Source: Methanoculleus sediminis
GTDB taxonomy: Archaea; Halobacteriota; Methanomicrobia; Methanomicrobiales; Methanoculleaceae
Assembly (NCBI RefSeq): GCF_001017125.1
Contig: NZ_JXOJ01000008.1
Span: 142,976-206,975, forward strand
Direction: 5' to 3'
DNA: 64,000 nt
In this document: positions 25,775 through 44,108 of the stretch, one piece after another
How the letters are laid out: every line of letters begins with the position of its first letter
Numbering within the stretch: the stretch's first letter is position 1
Program-made: the position numbers and the translations under genes
The notes under the pieces: generated by a model
What the model saw: only the letters and a program-made list of their open reading frames with translations
The model's database searches: none
Told to the model about the DNA's origin: nothing

Positions 25775-26533
25775 TTACGTACCCACCACCAGAGGGTTCT
25801 CGAGGTTCTTTAAGAGCGTCAGGATGGAGAGGGCCGCCATATAGCTCGTCGCCGGGTTATCGGGGCTCGGGACGTTCCTGACCCGGATGTAGATGTCCCC
25901 GAAGTCCCCCTCGACGAATATCTCGTGGATGTTCCTCTCCGCAGCAGGGTCGACCCAGAGTTCCACGTCGGCATCCCTGCCGGCGGCGAGTCCCAGCGCT
26001 ACCGCGACGTTGATGTTTTTGGGGTATTGCTTTATACAGTCGTGCGCCAGCCCCTTAAATATCTCTGTCCGGGCTTCGGCGGTCATCCCGAGCGACGCGG
26101 GAGGTTTCGTCGTCCGCAGGAGGAGGTGCTTCGGCGGTGAGATCTGGCCGATCTTGAGGTTGTCGAGTCCGGTGATGGCGCCGCTCGGGATGCGGATCTT
26201 CTTCCCCGCCTCCCGTGCGACCCCGATGAGGTGCTCGCGGAACGCGTCGTCAGCAAGAGCTCCCCCGGAGAGGACGACGATGTCCCGCCCCGACCGGAGG
26301 ACAGCCTCGCCGTATGTTCTGACGGCGTCGACCGAAGCGGCTTCCACGACGATCGAGAAGTCCTCCCGCATGAAGGCGTCGAAGTCCGCGTATGACCGGG
26401 CATGGCAGAGTAATGCCAGTTCCTCCGCCCGCCCGGGGATGATATCGAAGACGGCGACGACCCGGATGCCCTCGGCGTGTGTGGCGATGATATGCCCGAC
26501 GTTGCCGCATCCCAGCAACCCTATTTTAATCAT
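25775..26533 (-). CDS. nadX: L-aspartate dehydrogenase
   Basis: NAD(P)-dependent enzyme giving iminoaspartate, the substrate of quinolinate synthase, replacing the oxygen-requiring aspartate oxidase NadB; fits an anaerobe. 252 residues. Rossmann motif GLLGCGNVG at residues 5-13; PSGAITGLDNLK contains a conserved loop. First gene of the nadX-nadA-nadC operon. AATACTTAA on the minus strand (26561-26569) is a TATA candidate giving a very short leader. Confidence 0.93.
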   Translation of the reverse strand: MIKIGLLGCGNVGHIIATHAEGIRVVAVFDIIPGRAEELALLCHARSYADFDAFMREDFSIVVEAASVDAVRTYGEAVLRSGRDIVVLSGGALADDAFREHLIGVAREAGKKIRIPSGAITGLDNLKIGQISPPKHLLLRTTKPPASLGMTAEARTEIFKGLAHDCIKQYPKNINVAVALGLAAGRDADVELWVDPAAERNIHEIFVEGDFGDIYIRVRNVPSPDNPATSYMAALSILTLLKNLENPLVVGT

Positions 26534-31527: not shown

Positions 31528-31944
31528 AAACATTTTTTCCGAAGGCGGCCCCGGGATATCGAAGGGGTGCCGGGTTTAGCGGGCCTCCCGGGGTTTTGAT
31601 CACTGCTTGCGTGCTGCCATAGACGGACAGGCAGGACTCGATTAAAAGCCCGGTGCAGTGGACCGTGGGAGAATCGCCATTGGGGGAACGACACTCCGCT
31701 AGGAGTGGAGTTCGAGCACCGAAGGTGCGAGGGGGGGTTGCAGGGGAGTGCGATGGTTCGTAGAACCGGAGCTGGAGCACCGGAGGTGCGATATCCAACG
31801 GAAATCCGTGCACGGGTTCGTGGTGTCCCTATGAGCAATCGGCGGGGCACCCCGAGGCTTTGGCACCCGCAGGACATAGTGGGCGACCGGCAGAGGCAGT
31901 CCACCGTTATCAACACGCCGGCCTTCTCCCCCACCCAACCCCCT
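31528..31944. other. Gene-free stretch holding a hairpin-mosaic repeat
   Basis: No gene. Most of it is a dispersed repeat (31656-31812, described separately). The flanks are GC-rich and have no recognisable RNA gene. The end runs into the 3' end of the convergent gene at 31945. Confidence 0.6.
31656..31812 (+). repeat. Hairpin-mosaic repeat, copy A
   Basis: Begins with CAGTGGACCGTGGGAG (31656-31671) running into AATCGCCAT, and ends with GGTGCGATATCC...AAATCCGTGCA. Between are four mini-hairpins: CACTCC/GGAGTG (31692-31707), GCACC-GAA-GGTGC (31716-31728), GGTTC-GTA-GAACC (31755-31767) and GCACC-GGA-GGTGC (31777-31789). Both ends recur, in reverse orientation, at 43863-43971; one end recurs twice at 37.5-37.6 kb. 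Confidence 0.75.
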
Positions 31945-35236: not shown

Positions 35237-35938
35237 TTACGGAATTGTTCTGACGATCCGCTCCTTCGTCACCTTCCCGGCGATGAAGCGGGCAAGGGCA
35301 AGGAGCGCGAATCCCACCGCCGCGAGGATTGCTTCCGCCGTCACCGAGATGGCCGAGCCGCCCGGTGCGACCTGCTGGAGCCCGACGATCAGGAAGATGA
35401 ACCCGAATATCAGCACGAACCCGAGGATCTGGTTCTCCCGCATCCCGAGCGCGAGCTGGGCCGCGCCGATCAGCCCGGTCGCAGCGGCGATCCAGATCGG
35501 GACGACGGCCGCGAGGTGAAGGAGGAGCAGGGGTTCGCCGGCTACGGGAGCGCTCGCAAGGGTGTAAACCGCCGCAATGGTCACTGCGGCCGAGACAAGG
35601 GTCATCAGATACGCCGGCACGGCGACCCCTACGGCCTTCCCCTCCCAGAGGCGGCGGAGGGAGACCGGGGTGCAGAGGAGCGTCTCGACGGAGCCGTCCC
35701 GCTTCTCGCGGAGGAAGGCGTCGGCACAGAAGAGGTAGCCCATAAAGACCCCGACCGGGAGGGTAACCGTGGCGATGCCGCCGGAAATGGCCGCTGCGTC
35801 GCCTTCCGAGCCCGCAGCGATCCCGAGGATCGTCACGACGGGAAACCATACGGCGAAGATGAGCGCTGCGATGAGGGCGCTCCGGTTCCGGAGGGCGAGC
35901 CGGATCTCGCGCCGGGCGATGACGGCAAACGTGCTCAT
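35237..35938 (-). CDS. ABC-2 type transporter permease
   Basis: 233 residues with about six membrane helices; begins MSTFAVIARREIRLALRNRSAL, with the amphipathic N-terminal helix of ABC-2 exporters (given here in two parts: MSTFAVIARRE, IRLALRNRS). Overlaps the ATPase gene by 4 nt (35935-35938), so a two-gene export system. Cargo unknown (drug, lipid or peptide). Confidence 0.82.
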   Translation of the reverse strand: MSTFAVIARREIRLALRNRSALIAALIFAVWFPVVTILGIAAGSEGDAAAISGGIATVTLPVGVFMGYLFCADAFLREKRDGSVETLLCTPVSLRRLWEGKAVGVAVPAYLMTLVSAAVTIAAVYTLASAPVAGEPLLLLHLAAVVPIWIAAATGLIGAAQLALGMRENQILGFVLIFGFIFLIVGLQQVAPGGSAISVTAEAILAAVGFALLALARFIAGKVTKERIVRTIP

Positions 35939-36861
35939 GCCCCACCCTCCGCCCTGCCGACGTGTTCGAGATAGATCTCCTCAAGCGACCGGGACGACCG
36001 GCGGACCTCCTCGATCCGGAACCCCGCCCCGACGAGGGCCGCGACGAGGTCGGGTGTCGCGCCCGGGTCGGCGAGGGTGCAACGGAGGCGGTCGCCGTCC
36101 GCGTCGCACTCCGTAACGTACGGGAGGGGTCCCACGACCTCGCACGCGCGGTCGCCGGCACCGGCAAGCGCGACCGTCACGGCAGGGCGGCCGGATGCCG
36201 TGGTGAGGTTCTCTACCGAGTCGAAGGCACGGATCCTGCCCTCGGCGAGGATCGCGACCGTGGAGCAGATCCGCTGAACCTCGTCGAGGTGGTGGGAGTT
36301 CAGGAACACGGTCATCTCCTCACGCCGGGAGAGTTCGACGATGAGGTCGCGGACCATCCGCTGCGCCCCGGGGTCGAGGCCGGAGGAGGGTTCGTCGAGG
36401 AAGACGACCTCGGGCCGGTGGAGAATGGCCCGGGCGATCCCGAGCTTCCGCTTCATGCCGGTCGAGAACGTCCCGACCGGGTCGTCCCGTCGGTCGGTGA
36501 GACCGACGAGCGCGAGGAGTTCGTCGATCCTCTCCACAGGCTCTTCGATGCCGTAGAGCCCGGCGTAGTAGGCCAGGTTGTCCGCGGCGCTCATCCGGTC
36601 GGAGAGACCGTTGTTCTCGAAGAGCACCCCGACCCGCGCCCGCGCATCGTCATCCGCGGCAAGGTCCCGGCCGAGAACCCGGACCTCGCCCGCGCCGGGG
36701 GCGAGCAGGCCGAGCAGGATCCGGATGGTCGTGGTCTTCCCGGCGCCGTTCGGGCCGAGGTAGCCGAAGATCTCGCCGTGCCCGACGGCGAACGAGACGT
36801 CGCGAAGGATCTCGCGGCCGTCGAACGACCGCGAAAGCCCCCTGACCTCGACGGCGTTCAC
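35935..36861 (-). CDS. ABC-2 type transporter ATP-binding protein
   Basis: 308 residues. Walker A GPNGAGKTT, signature TFSTGMKRKLG (the STGM variant typical of CcmA/NatA-type exporters), Walker B VVFLDEPSSGLDP, His switch NSHHLDE. After the ATPase is a ~75-residue C-terminal domain. The start is GTG at 36861 with GGAGG a few nt before it; the open frame to 37026 upstream is not ABC-like. Confidence 0.87.
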   Translation of the reverse strand: MNAVEVRGLSRSFDGREILRDVSFAVGHGEIFGYLGPNGAGKTTTIRILLGLLAPGAGEVRVLGRDLAADDDARARVGVLFENNGLSDRMSAADNLAYYAGLYGIEEPVERIDELLALVGLTDRRDDPVGTFSTGMKRKLGIARAILHRPEVVFLDEPSSGLDPGAQRMVRDLIVELSRREEMTVFLNSHHLDEVQRICSTVAILAEGRIRAFDSVENLTTASGRPAVTVALAGAGDRACEVVGPLPYVTECDADGDRLRCTLADPGATPDLVAALVGAGFRIEEVRRSSRSLEEIYLEHVGRAEGGA

Positions 36862-37908
36862 GCCCGCCCCCTCCTCCCGCACCGCACGGCACAGGGCCGG
36901 GAGAGGGCGGGACGGATACAGGATCCAGCCGCATGACTGGGTGAAAGCATACCGATCAATTCCCGGCCACGGGGCATCAATCCATCGGTTTGTGCGGAAA
37001 CGACCATGAGATTGCGCCGGAACCATATCCTGTAGGGTAGGGGAGGTCGGAGAAGGAGCGCATCTGAAGTTTCACCCGGCTCTTCTCCCTCGCATTGCCG
37101 CGAAGAACCCGAGATGAACCGGACACGCCTTCCCACCGGCTATCCCCACACACTGCCCCCGCCCCGCAGGAAGGGGGAGGAGCGTGAAGCGCGGGTGGGG
37201 TGGGGGCTACAGTTATCCGCGGCAGGTGGAGACAGGGGAGGGGGGATGCTCCCCTTCGCACCTATCGGTGCTCAAGCTCGCTTCGCTCGCACTTCCCACC
37301 TGACGGTGGTCGAGCTCCGGTTCTACGAACCATCGCACTCGCACCTCCGGTGCTCAAGCTCGCTACGCTCGCACTCCGCACCCTTCGGGTGCTCATGCTC
37401 CTGCCGTTCCGGCAGTCGCACCCTCCGGCCAGTCGCACTCCCCGTCAGCCCCTCAAAGAACTTCGTTCTTCTCATGCTCCTGCCCTTCGGCCAGTCGCAC
37501 TCCCCCAATGGTGATACCCCCACGAAAGCCGTATCCGGGAGGGGAGCCATACATCCCCCTATCTAGAGCCTATCCCCAGGCAGTGTACCGTGGGGGTATC
37601 GCCATGACTGCCCCCGCCCCAAGGGGCGGGGAACGACTGCTGGAACAGCAGGAGTTTGAGCACCGAAGGTGCGGAGGAGGAGGCCGAAGGCCGGGTGGGG
37701 TTACAACAGATATACCGGATTGGTAGGAGGCTGCAAAGAGGTATCGCCAAACATCCGGACGCACCGCGCCCCATATCCTCCATCCGGCCCAGACCTTCTC
37801 CCGCTGAAATGGGAACAATTATGGAGGCAGAGAGGATATTATCATCATTATAGGCAGGAACACCCCGTGCTCCACCTCGGGCCGGTCGTTTCGCCAGGAG
37901 CCACTACG
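36862..37908. other. Gene-free kilobase built largely of repeats
   Basis: About 1 kb without a credible gene. 37138-37720 is a composite hairpin-mosaic repeat (separate entry). 36862-37130 shows nothing recognisable. The last ~150 bp hold the promoter region of the NCS2 permease gene (ATTATAGG near 37847). Small open frames here read through the hairpin modules and have repetitive Cys/Ser/Arg/His composition, so they are not likely proteins. Confidence 0.6.
37138..37712. repeat. Hairpin-mosaic repeat, composite copy B
   Basis: At least eight mini-hairpins with three- or four-base loops, each with a different stem: GCACC/GGTGC (37258), CCACC/GGTGG (about 37287), GGTTC/GAACC (37319), GCACC/GGTGC (37341), GCACCC/GGGTGC (37378), CTGCCG/CGGCAG (37401), AAGAAC/GTTCTT (37457), then further on CCCCGCCCC pairs, CTGCTG/CAGCAG, GCACC/GGTGC and GGCC/GGCC (37610-37692). 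A 17-bp inverted pair (37508-37524 and 37589-37605, one mismatch) is the shared boundary motif CGTGGGGGTATCGCCAT, so two units meet head to head. Confidence 0.75.
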
Positions 37909-43771: not shown

Positions 43772-44108
43772 GCTCCCGGAGAGGCTCCTACCCCGCCAGA
43801 TTACAGGGTTTTGTAGGTCAATCCAGTAAGAGGGAGAACTGCGTGCCCTGCTACAACTCCCATGCACGGATTTCGAGGGGATATCGCAACCGGGGGAAGG
43901 GGCTGACGGGGAGGGGGGAGACCCCCCTCCCCTGTCCCCACCCCCCGTGGCGATACTCCCACGGTCCACTGTATGGGGCTTTGCTCACGCCCCGCAGGCA
44001 GTGCTCCCACAGCAAGCACCCCGATCCCCACAGATCAATACAATTACCGACAACGTCCCCTGCCGGGGTGCAGAAGAAAGCGCGCCCCACAAACCCCAAA
44101 AAAAGATA
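43772..44108. other. Gene-free stretch with hairpin-mosaic copy C
   Basis: Contains repeat copy C (43863-43971). The rest is GC-rich spacer up to the 3' end of the bactofilin-like gene. No coding frame or known RNA recognised. Confidence 0.6.
43863..43971 (-). repeat. Hairpin-mosaic repeat, copy C
   Basis: In minus orientation it starts CAGTGGACCGTGGGAG (43971 downward) and ends GGATATC...AAATCCGTGCA at 43863, matching both ends of copy A (31656-31812). The centre is shorter (about 109 bp in total) and dominated by G/C runs with one long pairing GGGGAGGGGGG / CCCCCCTCCCC. Confidence 0.7.

Follow-up and report, generated by a model that had tools for sequence, protein, structure and literature searches.

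The hairpin array and its host element

The stretch of DNA analysed here (64,000 nucleotides, hereafter the window) belongs to contig C14 of the genome of Methanoculleus sediminis (2.49 Mb, 15 contigs), which was compared within a set of 35 Methanoculleus genomes, the M. sediminis genome itself counted in. Our subject is an intergenic array of short hairpins between a minus-strand gene for an ABC-transporter ATPase (35935-37026) and a plus-strand permease gene, whose alignment with relatives begins at about 37909 (both functions were assigned by reading the translations, without a family search). The array is situated upstream of both of these divergent genes. It is built from putatively mobile units of 36-47 nt with two hairpins each, here called double-hairpin modules, which lie in a larger core element resembling a miniature inverted-repeat transposable element (MITE).

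An initial annotation of the window had counted at least eleven short hairpins in about 570 bp, and this is borne out: eleven non-overlapping perfect hairpins (stem of at least 5 bp, loop of 3-5 nt) occur in 37138-37712 (575 bp), compared to a mean of 2.2 and a maximum of 7 in 500 first-order Markov sequences of equal composition. Folding of 37240-37510 as single-stranded DNA yields a z-score of -3.4. In Rfam the array has no match above the gathering score, and the window's only match is a tRNA. The inverted 17-bp boundary reported in the same annotation likewise exists (37508-37524 and 37589-37605) and is the meeting point of two inverted copies of the larger, ~200-bp core element.

Core element 1 (37119-37539, plus strand) is the MITE-like host of modules 1 to 5, recognised by its sequence, by related cores elsewhere in the genome and by a module-free form in the congener G008. 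Its outer ends, CCGGACACGCCTTCCCACCGG and CCCGGATACGGCTTTCGTGG, are inverted and are followed by (C)TATC..CCA and TGGTGATA, respectively. The second, inverted core copy (37577-37760, minus strand, with an uncertain right boundary) abuts core element 1 and is present in G008 as well as in a further congener, G006.

Modules 1 to 5 lie on the plus strand. Module 1 (37256-37291, 36 nt) carries the minimal second hairpin GC-TTC-GC, which reads GCGAAGC on the other strand. Module 2 (37294-37337) consists of CCACC-TGAC-GGTGG and C GGTTC-TAC-GAACC A, and is common to a second site in the window, copy A; module 3 (37340-37373) consists of GCACC-TCC-GGTGC and GC-TAC-GC. In module 4 (37376-37437) the second hairpin holds the remnant of a nested second module. 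Module 5 (37454-37499, 46 nt; AAGAAC-TTC-GTTCTT and CTGCC-CTTC-GGCCAG) is followed by a duplicated CT at 37500-37501 and is absent in G008. Module 6, on the minus strand at 37632-37674 (about 37636-37675 in the minus-strand parse, 26327-26366 in that strand's numbering), lies inside the second core and is probably older than modules 1 to 5 because it is common to G008 and G006.

Structure of the double-hairpin unit

In the initial annotation the single hairpin was taken as the unit, and TCNNNCTC and TCG(NN) as mere separators. Neither view can be upheld. The hairpins come in pairs and the pair is the natural unit, as derived from 16 loci that were read, 172 modules that were parsed and 43 that were aligned. 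On the pyrimidine strand its anatomy is (T/C)C-[stem A: 5-8 bp]-TC-N-(NNC)-TC-[stem B]-TC-(GNN), and the NNC and GNN parts of the supposed spacers base-pair and covary (AAC with GTT, CGC with GCG, TGC with GCA), forming a lower stem below the second hairpin (hairpin B). Both variable pairs of this lower stem match in 115 of 262 modules whose selection did not depend on a stem B, against 49 expected and a maximum of 67 in 2000 permutations. Units start with (T/C)CGCACC and end with TCG(CA/CG/TT), without an inverted match between the ends.

Hairpin B is variable in sequence yet remains paired. It displays 83 sequence forms among the 172 parsed modules, two-sided changes occur at all six pairs of stem B, 97% of the cells are paired, and the covariation score was reached by none of 500 shuffles. 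The modules in this test were preselected for perfect stems, which tells against our interpretation, and an independent test was therefore added. Among 93 segments located by flanking motifs alone, stems of at least 4 bp were present in 52%, compared to 2.4% after shuffling, and many of the remaining segments are either of the minimal GC-NNC-GC type or contain a mismatch or bulge.

The loops obey a rule that is apparent on the complementary strand, where 81 of 115 distinct loops of 3-4 nt (70%) are of the GNA or GNNA type; the same types make up 18 of 257 (about 7%) in background hairpins from the rest of the window. On this G/A strand, hairpin B in its smallest version reads exactly GCGAAGC. 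GNA triloops, such as that of the mini-hairpin GCGAAGC, are unusually stable in single-stranded DNA, and the TC/TC feet of the unit correspond to GA/GA on the other strand, which is able to form tandem sheared G.A pairs. Loop bias and GA/GA feet together point to the folding of one DNA strand, the G/A strand. Mini-hairpin DNA also serves to stabilise aptamers (PMC4686876).

Evidence for insertion

The exchange of modules between elements, as proposed in the initial annotation, is supported by their genome-wide and genus-wide occurrence and by a module number at this locus that varies by species. At the orthologous site of G008 both cores are 98% identical to those of the window, and modules 1-4 (about 182 nt) and module 5 (48 nt), i.e. 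all five forward-strand modules, are missing; over the intergenic region the two sequences are 98% identical apart from two clean insertions. We infer a gain of modules rather than their precise loss in G008, because the empty G008 sequence agrees with module-free cores elsewhere. G006 carries all modules of the window plus 34 nt within module 4, the intact nested form, and this additional stretch indicates that in module 4 of the window a complete second module formerly lay inside the second hairpin. What stood between two copies of CTCATGCTCCTGCC has been lost from the window. In G005 the whole middle of the region is missing.

Differences at single sites between species were observed twice more: between loci L091 and L032, where the arrangement is GCGGCT-(module)-TCGCG with a duplicated CT, and between L179 (in the congener G007) and L039. 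Among the loci compared, an exact empty site (9+9 nt) was found for 186 of 288 modules, and the removed length is one and the same, the module plus 4/5 nt, at 637 of 700 matching offsets. With the ends fixed beforehand, the last two target bases are repeated in 40 of 44 non-array events (permutation mean 16, maximum 26 in 5000), most commonly as CT. These scans for filled and empty sites used anchored boundaries; where target duplications were left free, modules common to several loci confounded the outcome.

The insertion points are pyrimidine-rich, and 17 of 87 are located in loops of stems of at least 5 bp, compared to 6% of nearby points. Loops that received an insertion are mostly T/C-rich on the unit-carrying strand, hence insertion is oriented. 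As the targets comprise pyrimidine-rich sites and hairpin loops, the arrays grow by nesting. The movement, which the initial annotation had left unspecified, consists in a two-hairpin unit of defined extent being inserted with fixed ends and a 2-bp duplication; the site is often the loop of another hairpin.

Abundance and distribution

The modules are by no means restricted to this locus. The M. sediminis genome contains 111 module places according to BLAST and at least 184 matches to a covariance model, which was built from the 43-module alignment; congeners have 0-180 matches, and ten genomes 13 or fewer. These counts are lower bounds, as a limited number of candidates was scored, and the E-values of the model are rough owing to a short calibration. 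Most Methanoculleus genomes are module-rich and some are almost empty. Beyond the genus there are few matches, except for two small genomes with 27 and 11, and in 393 genomes across the phylum strong matches are confined to the order. Loci with an exact 27-nt module pattern are all named Methanoculleus, Methanomicrobiales or unclassified Euryarchaeota; viral contigs yielded no exact copy of the one module pattern searched. In G007, a single-contig relative, homogeneous tandem arrays of 6-13 near-identical modules with a spacing of 44-47 nt are found at C1:1429838-1430435, 307428-307700, 1923558-1923959 and 1229425-1229774.

The core element and the surrounding region

The core element, with its inverted outer ends and copies dispersed through the genome, may be regarded as a MITE-like and putatively mobile element. 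An autonomous partner was sought at contig ends carrying core termini, where core sequence alone was found, and a comparison of L035 with L189 for an empty core site gave a gap that takes in unrelated flank, with no clean site. Contigs C9, C11 and C12 of M. sediminis (L156, L158, L159) break inside core elements, so that the draft assembly is interrupted by the core repeat. At L165 (C10:70600-72800 of the same genome) the core consists of little more than its two ends and is possibly an internal deletion derivative. In the window, copy A (31640-31800, minus strand) is a core fragment with two double-hairpin modules at plus-strand positions of about 31692-31729 and 31754-31790 (covariance match G000:C14:174724-174765). 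The stem module GGTTC-TAC-GAACC, which the initial annotation had listed, as GGTTC-GTA-GAACC, among the features of copy A, indeed recurs there at 31755 together with ~27 nt around it. Another core fragment (43859-43942) can be aligned with the core of G008. Modules are likewise borne by a second host repeat, which contains CTTCGCG motifs (L032, about 2470-2690; L091, about 1355-1607) and is missing from the orthologous sites of G007 and L059.

The segment 36870-37908 is 98.0% identical to G008 and 98.6% identical to G006, and its flanking genes only 84-94%, a pattern that suggests either recent recombinational exchange or unusual constraint. An open frame of 150 codons (37114-37566) spans the entire hairpin array, and frames of this kind may be annotated as spurious proteins. 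At L128 in the congener G009, a TnpB-like reading frame, identified by eye, adjoins the orthologous permease gene.

Probable origin and mobility of the modules

We consider it probable, from comparison of the sequences, that a MITE-like core was invaded by several copies of a non-autonomous mobile element of 36-47 nt, which may act as folded single-stranded DNA. The unit is very likely mobile; its movement as folded single-stranded DNA is a proposal that we advance tentatively. The G/A strand would fold into a single-stranded structure with GNA/GNNA loops and GA.GA mismatches under both stems, would be recognised in this folded form, and would then, probably in the course of replication or repair, be joined to a target that is unpaired or has melted locally, such as an exposed loop or a pyrimidine tract. 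The clusters could subsequently be reshaped where nested insertions are followed by deletions between repeats and by unequal exchange within tandem arrays, with tandem growth and loss through unequal exchange as an additional process beside insertion. As the responsible enzyme, Y1 transposases, IS110 recombinases and reverse transcriptases were searched for across the 35 genomes and rejected for M. sediminis, whose genome yielded none of them at the thresholds used. By default we regard the unit as selfish. A more speculative extension, about which we have some doubt, is that this minimal transposable unit is set by DNA shape more than by sequence: nearly any sequence would serve as stem B as long as a GNA/GNNA loop and GA.GA feet are provided, and the unit would move as folded single-stranded DNA into hairpin loops via an enzyme of a novel kind, its arrays growing by nesting.

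Several observations weigh against the invasion of the core by a mobile unit. A precise loss in G008, instead of a gain, is formally possible; the 2-bp duplication sits in C/T-rich sequence, in which chance matches are common (16 of 44); a length of 36-47 nt is small by the standard of classical transposons, and the element has no terminal inverted repeats; and no transposase or recombinase could be linked to the unit. Furthermore, 25 of 112 junctions are of a tandem, array type with repeats of 7-8 nt, and unequal exchange could yield these junctions and the G007 arrays without transposition. The homogeneity of the latter, at about 46-nt spacing, and the position of the window's 34-nt deletion between two CTCATGCTCCTGCC copies are likewise compatible with a scenario entirely without transposition, in which modules would spread from array to array by template switching, slippage and gene conversion at shared short motifs (TCGCACTC, CTCAAGCTC), the pairing of the stems being maintained by quasi-palindrome correction. 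We nevertheless regard such a scenario as unlikely, since the non-array events, in hairpin loops and unrelated cores, have fixed ends and a 2-nt repeat only, far more often than expected, and since orthologous sites differ by single modules.

It is also conceivable that the modules are structured DNA or RNA with a function for the host, e.g., a regulator, terminator or nucleoid-protein site, which is maintained by selection and only incidentally mobile. The high identity of the intergenic segment to G008 (98%) compared to that of the flanking genes (84-90%) and the structural conservation by covariation would fit such a role, which appears improbable given that the module number at the locus differs between species and that several related species are almost module-free. 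Compensatory changes in the stems and a strong RNA folding energy could be explained if the unit were transcribed, folded as RNA, reverse transcribed and integrated, as suggested for the double-hairpin elements of Allomyces and for yeast GC42. This RNA route is quite improbable, because a reverse transcriptase (PF00078) was not found in the M. sediminis genome at the thresholds used and is present in 3 of the 35 Methanoculleus genomes, and because the loop bias comprises GNA/GNNA and not just the GNRA or UUCG expected of RNA; a retroelement-dependent hairpin element was rejected for the same lack of PF00078. A highly improbable candidate is the repetitive extragenic palindromic (REP) type, including REPINs, moved by a REP-associated tyrosine transposase (RAYT, a Y1 transposase of the IS200/IS605 superfamily). 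Such elements are similarly short, palindromic, intergenic, of high copy number and clustered, and the subterminal hairpins of the module resemble IS200/IS605 ends (PMC6006769). We rejected this identification because the Y1 transposase (PF01797) was not found in the M. sediminis genome at the thresholds used, and because the hairpin foot, aligned as TC, has no GTAG tag; across Methanoculleus, 7 of 35 genomes encode the family, and most of these are module-poor (e.g., G011, G019, G022, G030 and G033). A target duplication accompanies the module, whereas IS200/IS605 elements are not known to make one.

Comparison with known systems

The IS110 family resembles the Methanoculleus unit in a dinucleotide core that is often CT and in its attraction to palindromic repeats. 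A bridge RNA, such as directs the IS110-family recombinases (PMC11208160), could by no means be encoded in so small a unit, and an IS110-type element was rejected because the recombinase (DEDD) was not found in the M. sediminis genome at the thresholds used (it is present in 7 of the 35 genomes of the genus). With MITEs the larger core shares inverted outer ends and dispersed copies, although its autonomous partner was not found; the double-hairpin unit itself was denied this label, as it lacks terminal inverted repeats. REP/REPIN elements with RAYT and the CGTC-tagged REPs are short palindromic intergenic repeats of high copy number as well, and the latter are likewise without a known transposase (PMC3733652). 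In contrast to these, the Methanoculleus unit has no invariant GTAG or CGTC tag, possesses two hairpins with pairing spacers, and is not accompanied by a Y1 transposase. An assignment to the CGTC-tagged REPs (CGTC end, stem of 8-9 bp, single hairpin) was rejected because the foot of the unit is [stem]TCG with a variable preceding base.

Our literature search, whose coverage leaves out most subscription journals so that an earlier description is possible, recovered no description of the Methanoculleus repeat. A word search of the genome paper of Methanoculleus marisnigri found no mention of such a repeat, the archaeal set of RepRanger includes no Methanoculleus, and the paper on CGTC REPs names no methanogen in its main text (PMC3733652).

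The unit has its closest functional counterparts in mitochondria. Yeast mitochondrial GC clusters (GC42) are similar in their length of about 42 nt, in AG/ACT repeats (AG being CT on the other strand), in the merger and shuffling of units and in exchange between species via conserved flanks (PMC4478555); the mover is known in neither system. Unlike GC42, the Methanoculleus unit is chromosomal and archaeal, many of its copies reside in hairpin loops, and its variation falls on stem B, with compensatory changes, and spares the closing TC motifs; in GC42 it is the loops that vary. The mitochondrial double-hairpin elements of Allomyces and Schizosaccharomyces (Paquin et al. 2000), as recounted in PMC10085805 and PMC2800124, likewise combine two adjacent hairpins into one presumed mobile unit, whose copy number varies between close relatives. 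In the account of PMC2800124 the Allomyces elements are without flanking duplications, which contrasts with the 2-bp duplication of the Methanoculleus unit; host and sequence differ too.

Two-hairpin mobile units such as the yeast GC clusters and the Allomyces elements have been without a known mechanism for decades, and the literature that we found describes mitochondrial cases only. The Methanoculleus system belongs to a free-living archaeon and numbers well over 100 copies per genome. Sister species supply clean empty sites, the target duplication was measured at 2 bp, nesting is directed to loops, and the loop rule is specific to one strand. The mechanism can thereby be put to the test, as the gene responsible may be sought by comparing congeneric species that are rich or poor in modules. 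Of the candidates for the mover, three obvious ones are already missing from the M. sediminis genome. The unit shares with the mitochondrial double-hairpin elements a short two-hairpin form in many copies, presence or absence at the same site among relatives and a short target duplication, and differs from them in its location on an archaeal chromosome. By this analogy it appears to work like the mitochondrial GC clusters and double-hairpin elements, a likeness of function that we do not extend to kinship or membership.
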